In this document: positions 4,505 through 14,923 of the stretch, one piece after another
How the letters are laid out: every line of letters starts with the position of its first letter
Numbering within the stretch: the first letter of the stretch is position 1
IMG/VR virus record: IMGVR_UViG_3300050025_000104
Span: 1-43,399 of that record
Direction: 5' to 3' (one strand)
DNA: 43,399 nt
DNA from: a virus
Translations under genes and position numbers: made by a program
Notes under the pieces: model-generated
The model's input: only the letters and a program-made list of their open reading frames with translations
Database searches by the model: none
Told to the model about the DNA's origin: nothing

Positions 4505-4563
4505 AGGAAACGCCGTCCGGCTCTTGGTTGCATTCCTGACCTTAGAGTAGTAGTATCTAAGGC

Positions 4564-5694
4564 GTGAAACTGGTTGCCGTTGCCAAATTGCTTCCGACTC
4601 CCGAGCAGTCCGCTGCTCTGCTGGAGACGCTTGAGCGCGTGAACGAGGCGTGCGGCTGGCTTGCCGAACGAGCTTTCGAGCTGAAGAGCGCCGACAAGCT
4701 CAAGCTGCAAGGGCTGTACTACCGAGACCTGCGCGAGAAGTTCGAGCTGTCCTCGCAGATGGCGGTGCGGGCGATCTCCAAGGTGGTCGAGGCGTACAAG
4801 CGGGACCGTACCCGCCAGCCCGCCTTCAGACCCCACGGTGCCATCGCCTACGACCAGAGGATCATGAGCTTCAAGGCGATGGACCGCGTGTCGCTGCTGA
4901 CCATCTCGGGCCGCATTCTCGTTCCCTACGTGGCCGGAGGGTACCACCGCGCTCGGCTCGAAGGCGTGCGAGGGCAGTCCGACCTTGTTCTCCGCAAGGG
5001 CAAGTGGTTCCTCTATGTGACCGTTGAGGTACCCGACGGTTCCCCTATTGACCCCGAAGGCTGGCTTGGTGTCGATCTTGGAATCCGCAACCTCGCAGTC
5101 GACTCCGATGGTGAGACCCACAGCGGCGCCGCTGTGGAAGCCACCCGCCAGCGCCACCAACGTCTCCGCAACATGCTCCAACCCATCGGAACCAAGTCGG
5201 CGAAACGCCACCTCAAAAAACTCTCGGGCAAGGAGGCCCGCTTCCGCTCCCACACCAACCACGTGATCTCGAAACACATCGTCGCCAAGGCTAAAGGCAC
5301 CGGGAGAGGGATTGCCGTCGAAGACTTGACGGGAATTCGCGACCGGGTAACTGTCAGAAAAGACGAGCGAGCGATGCACTCGGGATGGGCGTTTTTTCAG
5401 TTGCGTGCGTTCCTCAGCTACAAGTCCGCCATCGCCGGCGTCAAACTCGTGGCCGTGGACCCTCGCAACACCTCTCGGACTTGCCCAGCGTGCGGCTACA
5501 TCGACAAAGCCAACCGCAAGAGTCAGTCCGAGTTTGCTTGCAAGTCGTGCGACTTCGTTGACCATGCCGATCATGTCGGTGCGGTCAACATCGCACGCAG
5601 GACTGTTGTAAATCAGCCTATCGTCTCGAATTATTGTGATGGAAAACATTCGTGTTTGTCTGTCTCTGTTCAGGGGCAAAGCTGCCTGCTTTAG
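4564..5694 (+). CDS. tnpB: TnpB RNA-guided nuclease, 376 aa
   Basis: The N-terminal half is the helix-turn-helix and wedge region typical of TnpB. The split RuvC nuclease shows all three acidic motifs: Asp in 'GVDLGIRNLAV' (about residue 177), Glu in 'IAVEDLTGI' (about 258), and Asp in 'ADHVGAVNIARR' near the C terminus. A zinc ribbon (TCPACG, then CKSC) lies between the second and third. The length fits full-length TnpB. The start is GTG at 4564. The known function of the family is DNA cleavage guided by a right-end RNA. The last motif has 'HVGAVNI' where many relatives have 'xNAAxNI', but the Asp is kept, so an active enzyme is likely. Codon usage is more G+C-rich than the neighbours, and it is the only rightward gene in the first 14.9 kb. 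Confidence 0.9.
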   Translation: MKLVAVAKLLPTPEQSAALLETLERVNEACGWLAERAFELKSADKLKLQGLYYRDLREKFELSSQMAVRAISKVVEAYKRDRTRQPAFRPHGAIAYDQRIMSFKAMDRVSLLTISGRILVPYVAGGYHRARLEGVRGQSDLVLRKGKWFLYVTVEVPDGSPIDPEGWLGVDLGIRNLAVDSDGETHSGAAVEATRQRHQRLRNMLQPIGTKSAKRHLKKLSGKEARFRSHTNHVISKHIVAKAKGTGRGIAVEDLTGIRDRVTVRKDERAMHSGWAFFQLRAFLSYKSAIAGVKLVAVDPRNTSRTCPACGYIDKANRKSQSEFACKSCDFVDHADHVGAVNIARRTVVNQPIVSNYCDGKHSCLSVSVQGQSCLL

Positions 5695-5701
5695 CTGGCA
5701 G
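5682..5701 (+). repeat. Right-end hairpin, covering the tnpB stop and probable guide-RNA scaffold end
   Basis: CTGCC and GGCAG arms, a T/T mismatch, then GCT and AGC around a TT loop make the same fold as the left-end hairpin. The tnpB stop codon (TAG, 5692-5694) is in the loop and inner stem. In this family a non-coding guide RNA is made from the 3' end of tnpB and runs to the right end, so such an RNA probably covers the last 100-200 nt of the gene. That RNA is inferred, not seen. Confidence 0.65.
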
Positions 5702-5709
5702 TTCATTTA

Positions 5710-6324
5710 CTAGTATTCTCCTGGCTTTCCCTTACCGATCTCAGCACCGTATACAATAGTGTCTGGATTGGAATTAGCCACAAGAGTGCACCAATGTACT
5801 AGCTCGGATACTGACATAGAGTGCTTCATAAAATTGATCTTAGTGTGGACCCACTGTACGTTGCCGGGCACGTAGCCTACATCATTCTTAATCCTATCGA
5901 GAGATGCAGTAGAAAGATCACGCTCCACGTAGCTTGGATTCAAAACGAGGGGTACGCCTGTCAGGGCACACCTCTTTTTTTGCTTGAGAAACAGCTTCCA
6001 CGCGTCTTGGATCGTTATGGTTAGCTTATGTCCTCTACGTTTGGCACTGTTCACTATATTACGCCACTTGGTTCCGGACAGGTCACCTACTCCGTTATAG
6101 AAGTGGCTTCGTAGTCCTCTTTTGGCACAACCACACGACTTAGGTATCCCTCTAACACCCCTCTGAGCACGCAACAACTCAGACGTTTCTCGCCTCACCT
6201 CAGTACCACAGGCACACCTACACAACCACACAACATTTCCTCTAGCCGACCTATCAGACGTAGCTGTTACTGCAGTCAGCAGATCAAAGGTCTTACCAGT
6301 GAGATCCTTAGTCCTCCTGTCCAT
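5710..6324 (-). CDS. HNH homing-type endonuclease with an RNA-polymerase tail copy, 204 aa
   Basis: The N-terminal ~65 residues match a DNA-binding zinc module often found in phage HNH proteins: 'LTGKTFDLLTAV', CRCACG, then a 'PKSCGCA' end. The catalytic part has 'KKRCALTGVPL', 'TASLDRIKNDVGYVPGNVQWV' and 'KINFMK', the usual signature of the HNH family that includes group I intron and free-standing homing enzymes. The ATG (6324-6322) follows the RNA polymerase stop by one base (TAG C ATG), so it is probably translated by reinitiation. The final 15 codons spell 'IVYGAEIGK' then an ending in Tyr and TAG, nearly the same as the last residues of the polymerase. Synonymous differences at most third positions show the copy is not recent. 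The gene ends against the TnpB element. Confidence 0.85.
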   Translation of the reverse strand: MDRRTKDLTGKTFDLLTAVTATSDRSARGNVVWLCRCACGTEVRRETSELLRAQRGVRGIPKSCGCAKRGLRSHFYNGVGDLSGTKWRNIVNSAKRRGHKLTITIQDAWKLFLKQKKRCALTGVPLVLNPSYVERDLSTASLDRIKNDVGYVPGNVQWVHTKINFMKHSMSVSELVHWCTLVANSNPDTIVYGAEIGKGKPGEY

Positions 6325-6325
6325 G

Positions 6326-9300
6326 CTAGTATCCGACCTTTCCTTCTGGACTCTTACCTATTTCCGCCCCATAGACAATCGCTGGGATAGGATGTTGACT
6401 GTGGATGCTACTTGTCCAGCCACGCTGAGCTGCATCTATGATCGTTTCAGATAAGTTCTCGTGGTTCAGCTTTGCAATCCAGTCTTCCTGCATCTCAAGA
6501 GGCAATACGTTGACACCTTTGAGTATAGGCTCATGAATGATCGGACGAGAGCCCTTAGGCATAGTTCTGTTTATGTTGGAGACGTGTGCTGTGGAGGCGA
6601 AGTCACCACGAATGAGACCATCTGCAGACCCTGGATCTTTGATCTTAGTGAGGTTCGTCAAGGCTTTGACCACAACCTCATGGTTCCTTCTTCGAATACC
6701 AGAGCCAGCGTATGCACTGTGCAGTTCACTGGCCAGGTGTAGCTGAACAGGCTCTATACCTGTCAATGCCAGCATCTCGTGCGGATTCACGAGGCCTTCT
6801 GATAGAGGGCTACCCTTCTTGACTTCCATACCCACCTTCAATGGCTGGCCACCATAGGTAGGGGTACCTAAGGAGTGTGGGATGTAGTGGACGTGCCCTT
6901 CCACTGTAACCTCATGACCACCGGCAGGTGACGGAGCAATCTTCGTGACCTTACCGTTGAGTTCACTGAGCGTTGCAGATCCTGGCAGGGTCTTAGGAAA
7001 TGCAAGTAAGTTCTTCACGTGCGAGAAGTCGTCAACCAGTGCGCTCTTCGAAGATGCTGTACCACCTGTGTTGTGGTGCTTGATCCCACTGACATACAGA
7101 GTGCCTGTTTCCGTGGTTGCGTCGTACACATAAGCATCTGTGTACATCACATCCTTCACAACACTCACCAATCTGTACCCAGTAATCTCAGGCAATCTAG
7201 TAGGACTGACACCAGTAGTCTTTCTGACTTTCTCTGAAGCATGAAGTAATTCCTTTGCATCCTTAGTCATGCGGATGCGAATAGCAAAACCTTGATGCCT
7301 TGTTAGCTTTCTGATCGTAGTAGAAACAATAGAAGAAACTAGTCCTAGTCTTGTGCACAACAGAGCTATCTGCTGAACCAACACGAAGCTAGTAGAGTCT
7401 ATATTTATCGCATCAGGACCATCACTCTGAGGCAGTACCGTGCCATCACCATCGATCAAACCAATCAGCATCTCTACTAACCAGTCGGTAGGATACCCCA
7501 GGAAATCGAATGGTAGGTGCTTGTTGCTGGAGTATCTACCAAAGGTATCATTGAAGAATGTTCCCAACTTCAGACTATCCATTTCTACGTAACGCTTGTG
7601 ACGACGAGGCCGCCAGCCAGCCTTACGTAATCTGGACATGATCTTGTCTTGAATTGGTCCGCTTTTCTGAGATATCTGTACTTGGTACGGTTTCTCTACA
7701 GCACGCTTACTAGACTTCTTCCAGGCTGTGCTGCCCTCTGCTAAAAACACACCAGCTATGTATGCGTCTACGTCTAAGGTTGTAGCAGCCCTGACATACA
7801 TGATGGGAGATACGTCTCTATGTAGATAGACATCGTTCCGTAAAAGATCTGATGGGGGCAAAAAGGTGAGCTCCCCCATCTTCTCTATGGGTGCTTCTTG
7901 TGGAGATCCACACTGTCTACAGTACTGCCTAGACTTCTTGTGCGGATTTTTGAACTTGCGATAACCACACCTAGTACACCGTACTTTGTTTTCCCACACA
8001 CCTAGAGGGTGGTTATCCTGACAGATCGTAACCAGACCACCATCACCAACTAGCTTCATTGGCCTAGACGGTGGGTGTCTTCTAACGTGAGTAAGATTTA
8101 CCCACTCCGAATCCCATACTTGCCAACCCGACACACTCTTTACTTCCTCTGTACCATTCATATAGATCGGAGACTCAATAAGATCAAACAACGCCTCCAT
8201 AGTGATAGGAAGTACTCCAGTATGGGCACCACGAACAAACACTATAGATTTTGCGTGACTGCAGTGGAACGCCTTAAGTGCCAGCTGTGTCGTACGTTCT
8301 CCCAGCGCCTGACCCGCAAGTACACCTACGTTGAGTCCCTTCTCAGGCAATACACCATTCTCTGTGAGACCATAACAATTATGCGTGAGAAGACCATTAG
8401 CTGTGAACTTACGGCTATGCGTAGTGACATCATACACGTACTTGCAGTGTATCCGATCACTAACGTCTTTAACACGCAACACTGTTGCATACTGTTTATT
8501 TAGATCGTACTTACCATCACATGCCGACATACCTTGCATTTTCTGTGATCTACTCAGCCTATCGAGCATCGAACTATTCGCAGAGAATGTGAGGTGAAAG
8601 AAGTCTTTTCTAGTCTTAACCGCGTCTCCTTGTTCAGGAGTTTGTGTCTTACAGGATAGATCAGCACGAACACTGTGCCTAGATAGCCAATCTTGCACCT
8701 GAACTAATAGTGTATATGACGTAGATCCTATGAGTACTTCATGTGATCCATTAGCTCGCTCTCTAACATGCCCGTCTCCATCGATCAAACCAGCCACAAC
8801 ATCTCCGACATAGCTATCATCCCAACTTAGCCACGTAGTAGGAAGTACCTTTCGGTCACATAGTTCTAGCCCTCCTAGAACACTAACGAGTTCTCTAACT
8901 AGAGTGACGTCATTAAGTACGATGCCCGTTTCATTGACGTGTGGTTCATTTTTTGTAACAAACCTGCACGCTTCAATCATGCCTGGCCGCCACTGGTTGT
9001 CCTGCTGAGCAATACTTACAGATCTAGGATAGTCCCTATTCCTATCAGTAGAGCCCTCAGCCAGGTACAGACCTAACCAATATGGATTCAAAGTAGGCGT
9101 TTCTGGTTTACGCCCACGAAACTGTTTCTGAAAAGGGTAATACCTCAGTCTATCCCCAGGCATTACCTGATCTGCACGTATTTCTAGTCGTTCAGCTAGT
9201 TCCCAGGACTCTCGATCTACTGTCCAACTTCTCTCACAGTCTCTACAATATAAATATGCCTTATCATCTGGGCTCCTGTTGTCTATGGATATGCGTAATG

Positions 9301-12300
9301 ATCCGCACGTACATGCCCTAGGTCTCCACACTATAGCAGTATGATCTTCTGTAAGATGCTGAGTACGTCCATGCGTTGTTCTTATCTCTAACACAGCTTT
9401 ATGCGGCTCACGCGCATGACGTACAACCCTCTCCAAATCAACCCACTCTCCGTCATCAGAAATCTCCCACCCTCTGACTATTTTCACCTCTACACCACAG
9501 TCTGAGGTATTTATTGGAGAAAGCACCAAATCGAATAGTGCCTCTAGAGACAAGTTATGCATCACACCTGCGTGCTTCACCGTTACTACGGTTTCTGGAA
9601 TCATGGACTTCTGACAAATACCAGGTCCATGCAGACACCGCAGTGGTGACCTAACTACTACCTTACCCACATTGTTATTCCGTAGGGTGCTACGTATTTC
9701 TGGTGTGATCAAAGTACCAGCCTTGATGATGTGGCTACCTGCCTTGATATCTGCAGCAGTGAAGCGATCTAGTATGTCCTTCTCATCTACAGGCAGAGCT
9801 ATGCCCTTAGTGGTACCACAGTCAGTGTCCACGATCAGATTATTCATTACCGAGTTCATGACCTGCTTGCTGATGTAGCCAGGCTCCTGAACTGACTGGA
9901 CCTTCTGGATGATACCCTTACGAGAGCCACTGATAGCTGTCCAATAGTCAGCCACGTCCAGACCTTCAGAATAGGACCTACGTACGGGAGTAGGTATGAT
10001 CTCGCCCTTGTGATTGCTCATGAGCATGGGCGCAGCACGTATCTGCCTCAGGGTATCAGTACCACCCTTCATACCCACGTTGTGCAGGAGCATCAGATTG
10101 TTATCGCTCTCAGACACGGCCCTAAGATGCTTGTTCATCTCATCCGTAGCCTTGGCATAGATCTCAATCTGTTGTTGATCTTTGTGTGGACCAGTAAGCT
10201 TGTGTACCTTGGCATCAGCCTCAGCCAAGATCTTGTCTCTCATGTGGCGCTCAGGAGCTATGTCCTTCATGCCTATAGAGAAGGCTGTGTTCGTGGACCA
10301 CATGTTACCTAGGTCCTTCAGCTTGTTAGCTGACTCACTGTAATCACCTTTGTGATCTTTGCCGATCTCAGTGAACATGGCCTCTTGTGCCTTCTTATCC
10401 AAGGAGGCACTGCCCTCTAGCAACTTACGACGCATGCCCTCTGGTAGCGCACCTGCCACCATGAACCTTCCAACACCAGCCTTCATACCACCAACGGTCA
10501 CTCGATCTGTGAGCTTTATATCGCCCTTCCTAACAGCAGACTCCATGTCCTGCATGTTGGCGAACTTGTGATCAGTGTCCTTACCAGGCTGCATGATACC
10601 GTACAGACCTAACCTGCTCTCATTGGTAGGAGCGTACATTATCTCTCCAGTGGATGGACTGAAGAGGTTGCGTGATGGAAGCATCTTGTGTGCTTCAGCT
10701 ACAGCCTCAACACTGATAGGAACGAACGCACCCATGGCGTCACCATCAAAGTCAGCATTGAATCCACTGGTGACTAGCGGGTGAACTTGCACTGCCTTGC
10801 CGCCAACGATACGTGGCTTGAATGCCTGCACACCGTACTTGTGCAAGACAGGGTCTCGCTTCAGTAGGATAGGTCTGGTAGATATGACCTTCTCCAGTGC
10901 CCTATCCACAATCTCTCCACCCTCTGCCATCTTCTTCTGCGCCTGTAAGGGAGTGATGCCTAACAGATTTCGCAATTCACGAATCACGAAAGGTTTGTAG
11001 ACTTCCAGCGCTGCAGACTTGGGCAGGCCTACCTCATCCAATCCCAACGATGGCTCAGGGATGATGGTGCCACGCATAGACATGTCTTGCTTGCGCTCAA
11101 CCAACTGATCTTGGAAGAAGCCTTCCTTAGGAGAGCCACCCTTGGCACCAGTCCTTGGATCGATAACCTTCTTGCCGTGGATGTAATCCAGGATACCCCT
11201 GCGTACCTGCTTCGGATACCCACCGATACCAGCTAGTGCGCTAAGGCCATCGTACATTTCCTGGCGTACGTCTACCTTAGATGAGTCGTTGTCTGGGATG
11301 AGAGGAGACATCTTTGCGTACCTAGACGCAGACAGATGCAGGTTCTTGTACAGACCATTCAAGTCCTCTTCACTGATCGTTCCGTTAGGTAGCACTGGTA
11401 ATGGACGCATGGATGGCGGGAGTATTGGTACCGTCTTGGTCAGGTACGCTTCAACCGGAGTCATGTTCACCTTGTCCAGCGCCTGCAGAAGCTTCACCTT
11501 ACTGTTGGCGTGATCTAGGTACGTGCCCTTAAGTGTAGGCTTTTCTAGTGCTGTCTTAGCTGCAGCCAAATCCTTCTTGACGTTTATCTTACCGAGCATG
11601 TGCTCGAAAGCTTTGCCGCCTACCAGACCACCCTCAATCCTTTGAGAGTCACCGATCTTACCTGTCTTAGGATCGTATGCCAGTGAACCACCTACTAGCC
11701 CAATGAATTCCTTCTGCTTGATACCGAGCAGCCTGATGATGGCGCTCTCAAACACTGGGTTGGGTAGAGATTCTGGAAGTGTGTAGTGGGACCACTTAGT
11801 CCCCTCTAGCCCTCCTGTAATCTTTGGATCGAACAGACCGCCTATCTCAGGCTTCATGTTCTTTGCGGTGACCCATAGTGCAGGGTCTGTAATCTCACCG
11901 TTGCTTTGCTCTACGATCTGCTTGTCAGTCATAGGCATGAGGGTCAGGTTGTTTCCCGTCTTCTGTACGTTCACACCAAGGCCCCTGATGTACCCAAGGA
12001 ACTTGCTGTAAGCGAAGGTTGGCTTAGGAGTAGGCAGCATCTCACCAGCCTGCAGGGCAGACCAGAACTGATCTCCTTGAGCAGCGTCACTCTTGAGTGT
12101 CTGCATCTCCCGTAGGTTAGCCACTGCACCGTGAGCCAGCATGGAATACAGGCCCAGGGTACCTAAAGACTTGGCTCCCTGAGGACCGCCGCCCTTTGGG
12201 ATCAGGTTCTTATCGTAGGCGTATCCAGTACCACCAGCTCTAGAGCTCAGCTTCTTCTCTACCTGGTGGTGGAGTTTGAACACATGCATAGGACCAACGA

Positions 12301-14923
12301 GTACATCACCCATCTTCTTGTTGGTGAGTGGGTCTATGATCTCTTCTTTGTCAGACAGTCCATGCTTGGCCAAGTCTGCCGTCACCTGTGCATGGAAGTC
12401 AGCACCAGGAGCAAAGTTCTTAACCAGGTAGGGCTTGCCGGTCTTCTCTGCAATCTTAGCAGCAGCAACCTCAAGTACCTGCCCAAGGTTTGTTCTGCCG
12501 ATTACGCCCAGTGGATTCAAAAGAATCTCTAGATGCTTTCCATCTGCAGTACGTGGCATGTCGTGGTCTGGAACGATCTTAGTAACGATACCCTTGTTAC
12601 CGTGGCGTCCTGTCAACTTGTCACCAACGTCTAGCTGCTCTTCCGTCTTCACGTGAACAGCTACGTTCTTACCTATCTTCACAACCTCTTTGACTACGCC
12701 TGGGTAATCGCTGTCCCACTTGATACTCGAATCCTTGTACGGTTTGACGATGGACTTGTGTAATTTGGAGAGCTCCAGATCTTCTCGCCTCTCTGGGTCG
12801 TTAGATGCACGCAGAGCTGCAATCAAAGTGTCCCCAGGCATGATCACAGTACCTGGCTTTACTACGCCTTCTTCATCCAGCTTATCGAACTGTGCCTTGT
12901 TCAAGGCGTTCGGCATGTAAGCCTGGAACTTCCTTCGATCTAAGATGTGTGCGATGTCTCGCTCTAAGGAATGCCTATGCAAGTGCTCAGATGTCAGCTT
13001 CTTAGCTGCACTCTCACTGACCACGATACCATCGTCAAAGTTGTAGCCCTTGTATGGCATGAACCCAGCACGAAGGTTCGTTCCTATGGCCAAAGTACCG
13101 TTCTTCGTATAGTTCGTATCGGCTATGACCTGTTGTGCTTTTACTGTGTCTCCCACCTTCACTATGGGTTCGGCGTGAAGGAAGGCCTTGTCTTCATTGA
13201 GAGGGAAGTGATCGTAAATATGTACTTCCTTCTTCTCTCCATTAGGCTTCTTGATAATGATGGCATCTGGCTTGATCTTGTAGACCACACCATCAACTGG
13301 TGTTCTATGACTAGCAAAGCCACCGACTAGTGTATCGAAGCTAGTCTTACCAGCCATACTCTGAACGAGTGGAACCTCCCTGTGCTTCAAGGAGATAGCC
13401 TGTTCCATCTGTCTACCGGCCATGGTGCTACGATTGGGGTGATCAGATGGCATGAACGGGATCATGTTAGACGAGATTGAAAACATCTGAAGTGGGTCCT
13501 TCATTACGAAGTCCGCATCCTTCAAACTACCCTCATATATCTCGTTAGCAGGACCACTGATCTTGATATGAGATCCTATTGCCTTAGGCTTCCCATCAAC
13601 CCACGTTACTTGATCTGGTAGTACAACGTGAGACTTATACGCTACGGTTGGATTGACCTTTACATTCTTGCCAGTCTTAGCGTTGTACATGAGCACGGCC
13701 ACATCGTGCCCAATCTTTTGCACACCCAATGGCAACCGCAGGGTGATGCCCGTAGCATGGCCTTCTGGTGTGTGGATGGGGTCTAAGAATCCTAAGTGAG
13801 ACGGATCGATTAGCTTGGCATCATCAGACACTGTGTGCTCAGACTTGATACCGCCATCACCCATGATGGTAGTTTTCATCTGTGCCGAGATCATCTCTAG
13901 TGGGTTGGTCTGATCTGTTACGATAGCCAAAGAGTTCTTACCGAACATCTGCTTGATGGGTCGGTTAAATATTTCAGGAGCAACAATGTCACGCACCTTA
14001 GCTTTGCGATCAATATTGTTGCTCACCTTCTTCAAGATCTCACGAGAGCCCTTGATAATACGCTCTGCTGCGAAGTCCTCAATCGAGTGGAGGTCCTTGA
14101 ACATGAGAGCATCACGAGGGTCTGGCTTAGCCTCACCTCGAGATATTTTGAGAAGCTTGTCTGAAGCATCTAGTAGTGTATGCCCCGTAACATTCGTGTA
14201 CTCTTTACCTAGCGTGAACTTGGTCACCTCTGGACGAAGGATAGTCTTCTGCATCGTCTCCCAGAGATGGGCCTTAGCCTCATCAGGAGTGAGCTTGGTT
14301 GCCTTGTCTCCAGTAGATGCACGATAAAACTTGGCCAGCTCTTTGTTGGAGTCAGCATGGTTGACATCAACAATATCTTTACCCCAGCTCTTCTCTACCT
14401 CTTCATCTGACACACCCATGGCGTGCAAGAAAGGTTTGAGTGGCATGTTAGAGTTGCCATAGTTCAAAGTGAACTGTCGAGTCTTAGGATCAAAGTGAAT
14501 CTTGAATCCACCAGCAGCATTGAAGTGCGACTCGAGCGCACCGTCCTGCTTGATCATGTTGTATACACCAGGTTTCAAACGCCACTGGTTATCTATTTGA
14601 TACTCCTGCCCATCAACAATGTGGCTGAACCGACTGGTAACCTTTGGAAGATTGAGCAGATTCATTTTCTGCTTATCTATCACCGCACCAGTGGCGTTAT
14701 CCTTGAGAGCAAGGACCGCTTCTACAGGAACAGACCAAGTACGCCCACTAAGCTTGGCTTGTTTCTGCGACCTGAGATCATCCATATCCAGGTTATCTTT
14801 TACCGCTACACTCTGTAGCTCTAGCGTATTCTTCCGCCCGATAATGGGGAAGAGTCCGCTAACTGCATTTTGTACTCGGTCTTTGAGGAGTTCAAACCCC
14901 TCTTCCGGTGCAAGACGTGCCAA
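6326..14923 (-). CDS. Single-chain DNA-directed RNA polymerase, beta fused to beta-prime, with two inteins (2865 aa precursor)
   Basis: The beta part shows 'LDPIHTPEGHATGI', 'MPYKGYNFDDGIVVSE' and 'GDKLTGRHGNKG' followed by 'LNPLGVIGRTNLGQ', all canonical bacterial beta motifs. Near residue 1000 it passes into beta-prime with 'PILPPSMRPLPVLPNG', 'GLPKSAALEVYKPF' and 'ILLKRDPVLHKYGVQAF'. The catalytic 'NADFDGD' has Asp 1391, 1393 and 1395. Bridge-helix and trigger-loop motifs follow ('GQALGERTTQLALKAFH', then 'TGGTAS'). The N-terminal beta-prime zinc finger is absent, while the second zinc site is present. Removing two inteins of 410 and 398 residues gives about 2057 aa, far smaller than E. 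coli beta plus beta-prime. The start is TTG (14923-14921) with GAGGA four bases upstream. No alpha, omega or sigma gene is in the window. It probably transcribes late phage genes, which is an inference. Confidence 0.95.
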   Translation of the reverse strand: MARLAPEEGFELLKDRVQNAVSGLFPIIGRKNTLELQSVAVKDNLDMDDLRSQKQAKLSGRTWSVPVEAVLALKDNATGAVIDKQKMNLLNLPKVTSRFSHIVDGQEYQIDNQWRLKPGVYNMIKQDGALESHFNAAGGFKIHFDPKTRQFTLNYGNSNMPLKPFLHAMGVSDEEVEKSWGKDIVDVNHADSNKELAKFYRASTGDKATKLTPDEAKAHLWETMQKTILRPEVTKFTLGKEYTNVTGHTLLDASDKLLKISRGEAKPDPRDALMFKDLHSIEDFAAERIIKGSREILKKVSNNIDRKAKVRDIVAPEIFNRPIKQMFGKNSLAIVTDQTNPLEMISAQMKTTIMGDGGIKSEHTVSDDAKLIDPSHLGFLDPIHTPEGHATGITLRLPLGVQKIGHDVAVLMYNAKTGKNVKVNPTVAYKSHVVLPDQVTWVDGKPKAIGSHIKISGPANEIYEGSLKDADFVMKDPLQMFSISSNMIPFMPSDHPNRSTMAGRQMEQAISLKHREVPLVQSMAGKTSFDTLVGGFASHRTPVDGVVYKIKPDAIIIKKPNGEKKEVHIYDHFPLNEDKAFLHAEPIVKVGDTVKAQQVIADTNYTKNGTLAIGTNLRAGFMPYKGYNFDDGIVVSESAAKKLTSEHLHRHSLERDIAHILDRRKFQAYMPNALNKAQFDKLDEEGVVKPGTVIMPGDTLIAALRASNDPERREDLELSKLHKSIVKPYKDSSIKWDSDYPGVVKEVVKIGKNVAVHVKTEEQLDVGDKLTGRHGNKGIVTKIVPDHDMPRTADGKHLEILLNPLGVIGRTNLGQVLEVAAAKIAEKTGKPYLVKNFAPGADFHAQVTADLAKHGLSDKEEIIDPLTNKKMGDVLVGPMHVFKLHHQVEKKLSSRAGGTGYAYDKNLIPKGGGPQGAKSLGTLGLYSMLAHGAVANLREMQTLKSDAAQGDQFWSALQAGEMLPTPKPTFAYSKFLGYIRGLGVNVQKTGNNLTLMPMTDKQIVEQSNGEITDPALWVTAKNMKPEIGGLFDPKITGGLEGTKWSHYTLPESLPNPVFESAIIRLLGIKQKEFIGLVGGSLAYDPKTGKIGDSQRIEGGLVGGKAFEHMLGKINVKKDLAAAKTALEKPTLKGTYLDHANSKVKLLQALDKVNMTPVEAYLTKTVPILPPSMRPLPVLPNGTISEEDLNGLYKNLHLSASRYAKMSPLIPDNDSSKVDVRQEMYDGLSALAGIGGYPKQVRRGILDYIHGKKVIDPRTGAKGGSPKEGFFQDQLVERKQDMSMRGTIIPEPSLGLDEVGLPKSAALEVYKPFVIRELRNLLGITPLQAQKKMAEGGEIVDRALEKVISTRPILLKRDPVLHKYGVQAFKPRIVGGKAVQVHPLVTSGFNADFDGDAMGAFVPISVEAVAEAHKMLPSRNLFSPSTGEIMYAPTNESRLGLYGIMQPGKDTDHKFANMQDMESAVRKGDIKLTDRVTVGGMKAGVGRFMVAGALPEGMRRKLLEGSASLDKKAQEAMFTEIGKDHKGDYSESANKLKDLGNMWSTNTAFSIGMKDIAPERHMRDKILAEADAKVHKLTGPHKDQQQIEIYAKATDEMNKHLRAVSESDNNLMLLHNVGMKGGTDTLRQIRAAPMLMSNHKGEIIPTPVRRSYSEGLDVADYWTAISGSRKGIIQKVQSVQEPGYISKQVMNSVMNNLIVDTDCGTTKGIALPVDEKDILDRFTAADIKAGSHIIKAGTLITPEIRSTLRNNNVGKVVVRSPLRCLHGPGICQKSMIPETVVTVKHAGVMHNLSLEALFDLVLSPINTSDCGVEVKIVRGWEISDDGEWVDLERVVRHAREPHKAVLEIRTTHGRTQHLTEDHTAIVWRPRACTCGSLRISIDNRSPDDKAYLYCRDCERSWTVDRESWELAERLEIRADQVMPGDRLRYYPFQKQFRGRKPETPTLNPYWLGLYLAEGSTDRNRDYPRSVSIAQQDNQWRPGMIEACRFVTKNEPHVNETGIVLNDVTLVRELVSVLGGLELCDRKVLPTTWLSWDDSYVGDVVAGLIDGDGHVRERANGSHEVLIGSTSYTLLVQVQDWLSRHSVRADLSCKTQTPEQGDAVKTRKDFFHLTFSANSSMLDRLSRSQKMQGMSACDGKYDLNKQYATVLRVKDVSDRIHCKYVYDVTTHSRKFTANGLLTHNCYGLTENGVLPEKGLNVGVLAGQALGERTTQLALKAFHCSHAKSIVFVRGAHTGVLPITMEALFDLIESPIYMNGTEEVKSVSGWQVWDSEWVNLTHVRRHPPSRPMKLVGDGGLVTICQDNHPLGVWENKVRCTRCGYRKFKNPHKKSRQYCRQCGSPQEAPIEKMGELTFLPPSDLLRNDVYLHRDVSPIMYVRAATTLDVDAYIAGVFLAEGSTAWKKSSKRAVEKPYQVQISQKSGPIQDKIMSRLRKAGWRPRRHKRYVEMDSLKLGTFFNDTFGRYSSNKHLPFDFLGYPTDWLVEMLIGLIDGDGTVLPQSDGPDAINIDSTSFVLVQQIALLCTRLGLVSSIVSTTIRKLTRHQGFAIRIRMTKDAKELLHASEKVRKTTGVSPTRLPEITGYRLVSVVKDVMYTDAYVYDATTETGTLYVSGIKHHNTGGTASSKSALVDDFSHVKNLLAFPKTLPGSATLSELNGKVTKIAPSPAGGHEVTVEGHVHYIPHSLGTPTYGGQPLKVGMEVKKGSPLSEGLVNPHEMLALTGIEPVQLHLASELHSAYAGSGIRRRNHEVVVKALTNLTKIKDPGSADGLIRGDFASTAHVSNINRTMPKGSRPIIHEPILKGVNVLPLEMQEDWIAKLNHENLSETIIDAAQRGWTSSIHSQHPIPAIVYGAEIGKSPEGKVGY
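7070..8263 (-). other. Intein 2 (LAGLIDADG), inserted in the trigger loop
   Basis: This covers precursor residues 2221-2618 (398 aa). It begins with Cys directly after the extein 'LKAFH' and ends 'GIKHHN' before Thr+1 of 'TGGTAS', so the splice residues (Cys1, penultimate His, terminal Asn, Thr+1) are intact. Block B is degenerate ('CQDNHPLGVW'). Two LAGLIDADG motifs are present, 'IAGVFLAEGST' and 'LIGLIDGDGTV', with block F 'YVYDATTETGTLYVSG'. A zinc ribbon (CTRCG, then CRQCG) sits between block B and the endonuclease. The extein His before the junction aligns with E. coli beta-prime His936, the trigger-loop residue. Confidence 0.93.
8378..9607 (-). other. Intein 1 (LAGLIDADG), inserted at the second zinc site of beta-prime
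   Basis: This covers precursor residues 1773-2182 (410 aa). It begins with Ser after the extein 'GPGICQK' and ends 'GLLTHN' before Cys+1 of 'CYGLTENG'. Block B is clear ('TQHLTEDHTAIVW'). The endonuclease motifs are 'LGLYLAEGST' and 'VAGLIDGDGHV', and block F is 'KYVYDVTTHSRKFTANG'. A zinc ribbon (CTCG, then YCRDC) follows block B. Cys+1 (residue 2183) aligns with E. coli beta-prime Cys898, so the polymerase zinc site C1763, C1770 and C2183 plus an upstream Cys can form only after splicing. It resembles intein 2 throughout. Confidence 0.93.

Follow-up and report, generated by a model that had tools for sequence, protein, structure and literature searches.

The locus raises two questions: whether an intein interrupts a phage RNA polymerase directly after the catalytic histidine of its trigger loop and, if so, whether splicing there times the activity of the enzyme or the insert is a selfish mobile element. 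The DNA analysed (hereafter the window) is the record of a virus and comprises 43,399 nucleotides. Its open reading frame (ORF) at 6326-14923 on the minus strand encodes a fused beta-beta' RNA polymerase according to Pfam (RNA_pol_Rpb2_6, 4e-56; Rpb1_2, 1.5e-24; Rpb1_5, 5e-14), PHROGs and NCBIfam, and its beta and beta' homologues are recognisable by cellular profiles (TIGR02386, 2e-125; TIGR02013, 8e-97). The gene and its inserts are arranged as follows.

6326-14923, minus strand: host gene for a single-chain beta-beta' phage RNA polymerase (2865 aa including its two inteins, 2057 aa without them)
8378-9607, minus strand: second intein, in the beta' zinc motif CLHGPGICQK/CYG (410 aa, residues 1773-2182, S1...THN/C+1)
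8264-8377, minus strand: 38-aa extein between the two inteins, CYGL...LALKAFH, with the catalytic His codon at 8264-8266
7070-8263, minus strand: trigger-loop intein (398 aa, polymerase residues 2221-2618; C1 at 8261-8263, His397-Asn398 at 7070-7075)
7067-7069, minus strand: Thr codon, the +1 residue of the trigger-loop intein

The boundaries given in a preliminary description of this DNA proved exact to the base when compared with the residues of the ORF, the flanking sequences (...LALKAFH / CSHAKS...GIKHHN / TGGTASS) and an intein-free relative. This relative, L004, has 87% amino acid identity to the window over the whole polymerase and reads an uninterrupted LKAFHTGGTASS at the junction; its counterpart of the flanks is the continuous LALKAFHTGGTASSKSALV, an exact match to joined LALKAFH/TGGTASS. 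A phmmer alignment pairs the His that precedes the intein with Thermus thermophilus beta' H1242, whose Escherichia coli equivalent, H936, contacts the NTP (PMC3737540). This bears out the proposed correspondence to E. coli His936 and puts the junction directly after the catalytic His of the trigger loop, although the E. coli and archaeal comparisons made here lean partly on cited papers. The same His is invariant in all 22 phage sequences compared. Both junctions are repeated with 100% identity in L012, a separate contig from the same population, which disfavours an assembly artefact.

The interior of the trigger-loop intein contains the following elements, where the six copies are those of the family described below.

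8009-8020, minus strand: block B, Q-D-N-H (residues 82-85), with Gln where Thr is usual, in all six copies
7910-7978, minus strand: four-Cys ribbon, CxxC...CxxC (residues 96-118), invariant in all six copies
7229-7783, minus strand: LAGLIDADG homing endonuclease region (residues 161-345; E176, D273), PF14528 at 5e-11
7070-7129, minus strand: splicing blocks F/G, VYDATTETGTLYVSGIKHHN, with a profile match to the C-part of the Nanoarchaeum equitans intein (NEQ528; E 0.004)

The nucleophiles are those of a class 1 intein, with Cys at position 1 and Thr at +1 (Ser+1 in two relatives), and the insert is likewise typical of this class in lying in frame within a conserved protein and being absent from homologues such as L004. 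C1, H85, E176, D271, D273 and the C-terminal H397-N398 are invariant across the six copies, as is an H(-1)-C1-x-H3 arrangement at the junction. Block B (TxxH) retains its His, and the Gln82 found at the Thr position could make splicing slow. The two LAGLIDADG motifs carry their acidic residues (FLAEGS and LIDGDGT), and the PF14528 match is above its cut-off. The splicing domain falls below the Pfam and NCBIfam thresholds for general intein models and was assigned from its residues, from blocks F/G, where the last 21 positions of a six-copy family profile match the N. equitans C-part, and from its similarity to the neighbouring zinc-motif intein (99% probability over 365 columns in a profile comparison), which itself matches Intein_splicing (PF14890) at 2e-5, under its cut-off. 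Between block B and the endonuclease lies the zinc ribbon previously pointed out, which is present as a motif (C96, C99, C115 and C118). A C1-C81 redox pair was considered as a general feature and dropped, as residue 81 is Ser in L051 and L052.

The first search recovered five close polymerases. An alignment-based scan extended these to 27 polymerase loci, among which only L046 (the same record as L008) carries a trigger-loop intein. Searching viral contigs with the DNA pattern Q-x-[AT]-x-K-[AT]-F-H-Cys added two further phages, L051 and L052, while matches in L053 and L056 were due to chance, and a profile of trigger-loop inteins added L066 and L067. The intein is thus found in six lineages, including the window, at an identical junction in each (FH/C1...HN/[T/S]GG). 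Identity to the window copy ranges from 91% (L008) through 46% (L066), 44% (L067) and 34% (L051) to 33% (L052). The carriers fall in three polymerase clades with non-carriers between them; the site is empty in L004 and most other relatives. The +1 residue is Thr or Ser in every carrier and Gly or Gln in some non-carriers. About 85,000 cellular genomes were scanned for Q-x-T-x-R-T-F-H-C, a pattern that covers Cys1 inteins in the canonical motif only; of its nine matches none lay in an RNA polymerase. Isolate phages and plasmids showed no similarity to the trigger-loop intein. No paper describing a phage beta' trigger-loop intein was found in the open-access literature; judged by that literature, the junction, the phage family and the recurrence of the intein seem to be new.

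Inteins occupy several sites in these polymerases. The second intein of the window lies 38 residues upstream of the first, and carries a similar Cys ribbon (CxC...CxxC), a recurrence that suggests a DNA-binding role for the ribbon. L008 has both window inteins and two more in beta, making four in a chain of 3596 aa, whereas L005 and L006 have two other inteins, in beta, and L004 and L007 have none. The L008 contig (IMGVR_UViG_3300041809_000868) also has endonuclease-like matches in further genes of the same phage. Intein-like inserts directly follow the NADFDGD metal-binding motif of beta' in L030 (7441-9100), L041 (7480-9100) and L070, where DFDGD lies at residue 1774 of a 3259-aa frame; the L030 insert has Asp as its last residue before Cys+1, and the first residue of the L041 insert looks like Glu. 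Another site in this gene family is represented by a beta intein in L032 (4621-5637), located after GRHGNKGIVT (C1...WSGN/C+1). A test of intein-site conservation gave only a modest signal (P 0.03 for five sites jointly), with the trigger loop at the 70th percentile of conservation within this phage family.

Directly after the polymerase gene lies an HNH-like ORF (5710-6324, minus strand) that ends ...TIVYGAEIGKGKPGEY and thereby repeats the C-terminus of the polymerase. The polymerase itself (C-terminus at 6326-6420) ends ...AIVYGAEIGKSPEGKVGY and intein-free L004 ends ...IVYGAEVGKGKPGEY; given this copy and the L004 ending, an endonuclease gene seems to have been inserted at the 3' end of the polymerase gene with duplication of its tail. 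A TnpB gene (4564-5694, plus strand; OrfB_IS605 and a Cas12f1-like TNB domain) is situated between the HNH-like ORF and the spike gene, and L012 lacks exactly window positions 4545-6054. The polymerase of L009 and L011 (Vibrio phage D69 and Salmonella phage Arash) is split, with beta and the first part of beta' in one ORF and the rest of beta' in another.

Comparison of the window with L008 gave dN/dS values of 0.041 over the intein and 0.046 over the endonuclease, from which both splicing and endonuclease functions appear to be maintained. Silent sites differ less in the trigger-loop intein (pS 0.58) than in any polymerase stretch of equal length (minimum 0.646), and the neighbouring intein, at 0.733, is not below that minimum. 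The low value fits a later transfer of the trigger-loop intein and could partly reflect constraint; silent-site differences are near saturation, so any dating is relative only. Intein identity exceeds polymerase identity between the window and L008 (91.5 versus 88.5) and between L051 and L052 (71.8 versus 61.7), but the opposite holds for L066 and L067 (52.6 versus 64.6). In the protein tree, intein-free L004 pairs with the carrier L008 with full support; the nucleotide tree disagrees, and under either topology the intein has been gained or lost among close relatives. No co-conversion tract was seen, the intein flanks being not unusually similar between carriers. At depth, the trees of intein and polymerase would also fit an old element that was inherited vertically and lost many times.

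The reading that best accommodates these data, to which we assign a probability of about 0.85, is a selfish homing intein of class 1 type that has a LAGLIDADG endonuclease, has specialised in the codons of the trigger loop in multisubunit phage RNA polymerases, and restores the enzyme by splicing. After translation, Cys1 would attack the His-Cys peptide bond, the N-extein would pass to Thr+1, and cyclisation of Asn398 would accompany joining of the exteins into a continuous ...KAFHTGG... trigger loop. In a mixed infection, the endonuclease would cut intein-free polymerase alleles and the intein would be copied in. On this reading the site is used for its conservation, which provides the endonuclease with a target every time, and because imprecise loss of the intein would kill the polymerase. 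The sequences show where the intein sits, that its catalytic residues are intact, that it recurs at one site in six lineages with a patchy distribution, and that it is under purifying selection; from these we infer splicing, DNA cutting, mobility and inactivity of the precursor. The exact in-frame insertion and the natural intein-free relatives support this reading, and the further intein sites in the same polymerases, up to four per chain, are as expected of mobile elements.

The polymerase precursor is likely to be disabled until the 398-aa insert is spliced out, since the insert lies between the catalytic His and the remainder of the loop. Insertions into the trigger loop are not lethal in principle, as the E. 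coli enzyme works with the 188-aa insert SI3 elsewhere in its own loop (PMC3737540). The preliminary description went further and proposed that splicing serves as a timing switch. Such a switch would require slow or inhibited splicing, governed by metal, redox state or temperature, to set the moment of polymerase activation, for example after packaging into the virion or at a certain stage of infection. The position directly after the catalytic His, the unusual block B Gln and the invariant H(-1)-C1-x-H3 and four-Cys ribbon are all in keeping with this, as is the inhibition of a mycobacterial DnaB intein by zinc on its catalytic Cys (PMC7360933). The polymerase also adjoins a gp5-like spike gene and a gene for a portal-like protein (33% to the portal of Salmonella phage Arash), and may therefore be a late or virion enzyme. 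However, the proposal gained no positive evidence, as nothing in the sequence points to condition-dependent splicing. The 87%-identical L004 polymerase and most relatives do without an intein here, the gene has inteins in other motifs as well, and the presence of copies in six lineages resembles that of a mobile allele. Nor did the suggested role of the ribbon as a sensor fare better, because the similar ribbon of the zinc-motif intein shows that it is not specific to this site, and the possible redox partner C81 is Ser in two copies. We therefore regard a conditional switch as unlikely. A stronger version, in which the whole intein family acts as a post-translational activation lock, with splicing tuned through His(-1)-Cys1-x-His3 and the ribbon so that the enzyme is held inactive until metal or redox conditions change, for instance between assembly and injection, seems slightly more doubtful again.

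A decayed intein that no longer splices, leaving the polymerase dead or working in pieces, might be suspected from the replaced block B Thr and from the failure to reach the splicing-domain models, but it is very improbable given that the nucleophiles are all intact, that dN/dS is 0.04 and that five other lineages have the same block B Gln.

Least probable of all, to the point of being barely credible, is that the insert and the intein of archaeal RNA polymerase A'' (PMC1635734) are one allele, inherited or transferred across domains: the archaeal intein also lies in the trigger loop and the NCBIfam model for A'' with intein, NF011491, can be aligned over the junction region of L051 and L067, but the archaeal insert is located about six residues upstream of the His (QM/TLRTFH) and the similarity between the inteins is marginal (E 0.005). 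The archaeal site was mapped by splitting trigger-loop peptides from solved structures at the His and placing them on NF011491, where the part ending in QMTL fell at positions 60-77 and the part from TLRTFH onwards at 544-584; profile positions of this kind may be in error by one or two residues. An exactly shared site was accordingly rejected.

The archaeal A'' inteins (Mja rPol A'', Nph rPol A''; NF011491/PRK14898) nevertheless resemble the window intein in bearing an endonuclease and in occupying the trigger loop of a largest-subunit homologue, so that trigger-loop inteins have a precedent, though not at this site. With a phage family here and a different archaeal intein a few residues away, the trigger loop is a recurrent intein target. 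The present site, which six phage lineages share through a single intein family, adds an insertion point at one of the most constrained residues in transcription. It offers a natural and testable system for asking whether a phage gains control from splicing at a catalytic residue or only tolerates it; fast splicing would in addition make it a traceless way of holding a multisubunit RNA polymerase as a precursor.

Among other known systems, the RNA polymerase-encoding Caudovirales termed mReC (PMC7481178) are tailed phages whose homologues of beta and beta' can likewise be recognised; inteins are absent from the main text of that paper, and beta and beta' form one chain in the window. The Mycobacterium smegmatis DnaBi1 (PMC7360933) and Pyrococcus horikoshii RadA (PMC5790916) inteins also interrupt a functional motif of an essential enzyme, and differ in that condition-dependence has been shown for them. 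The active-centre inteins of mycobacteriophages, above all those of TerL (PMC5050341), share an endonuclease, catalytic motifs as insertion sites and several sites per protein; they reside in another host protein and their splicing, thought to be necessary for activity, was tested, whereas the window intein is known from sequence. Finally, although the inteins of eukaryotic second-largest RNA polymerase subunits (PMC1635734) are found in a different subunit, at different sites and in nuclear genes, they too represent multiple non-allelic inteins near the active cleft.
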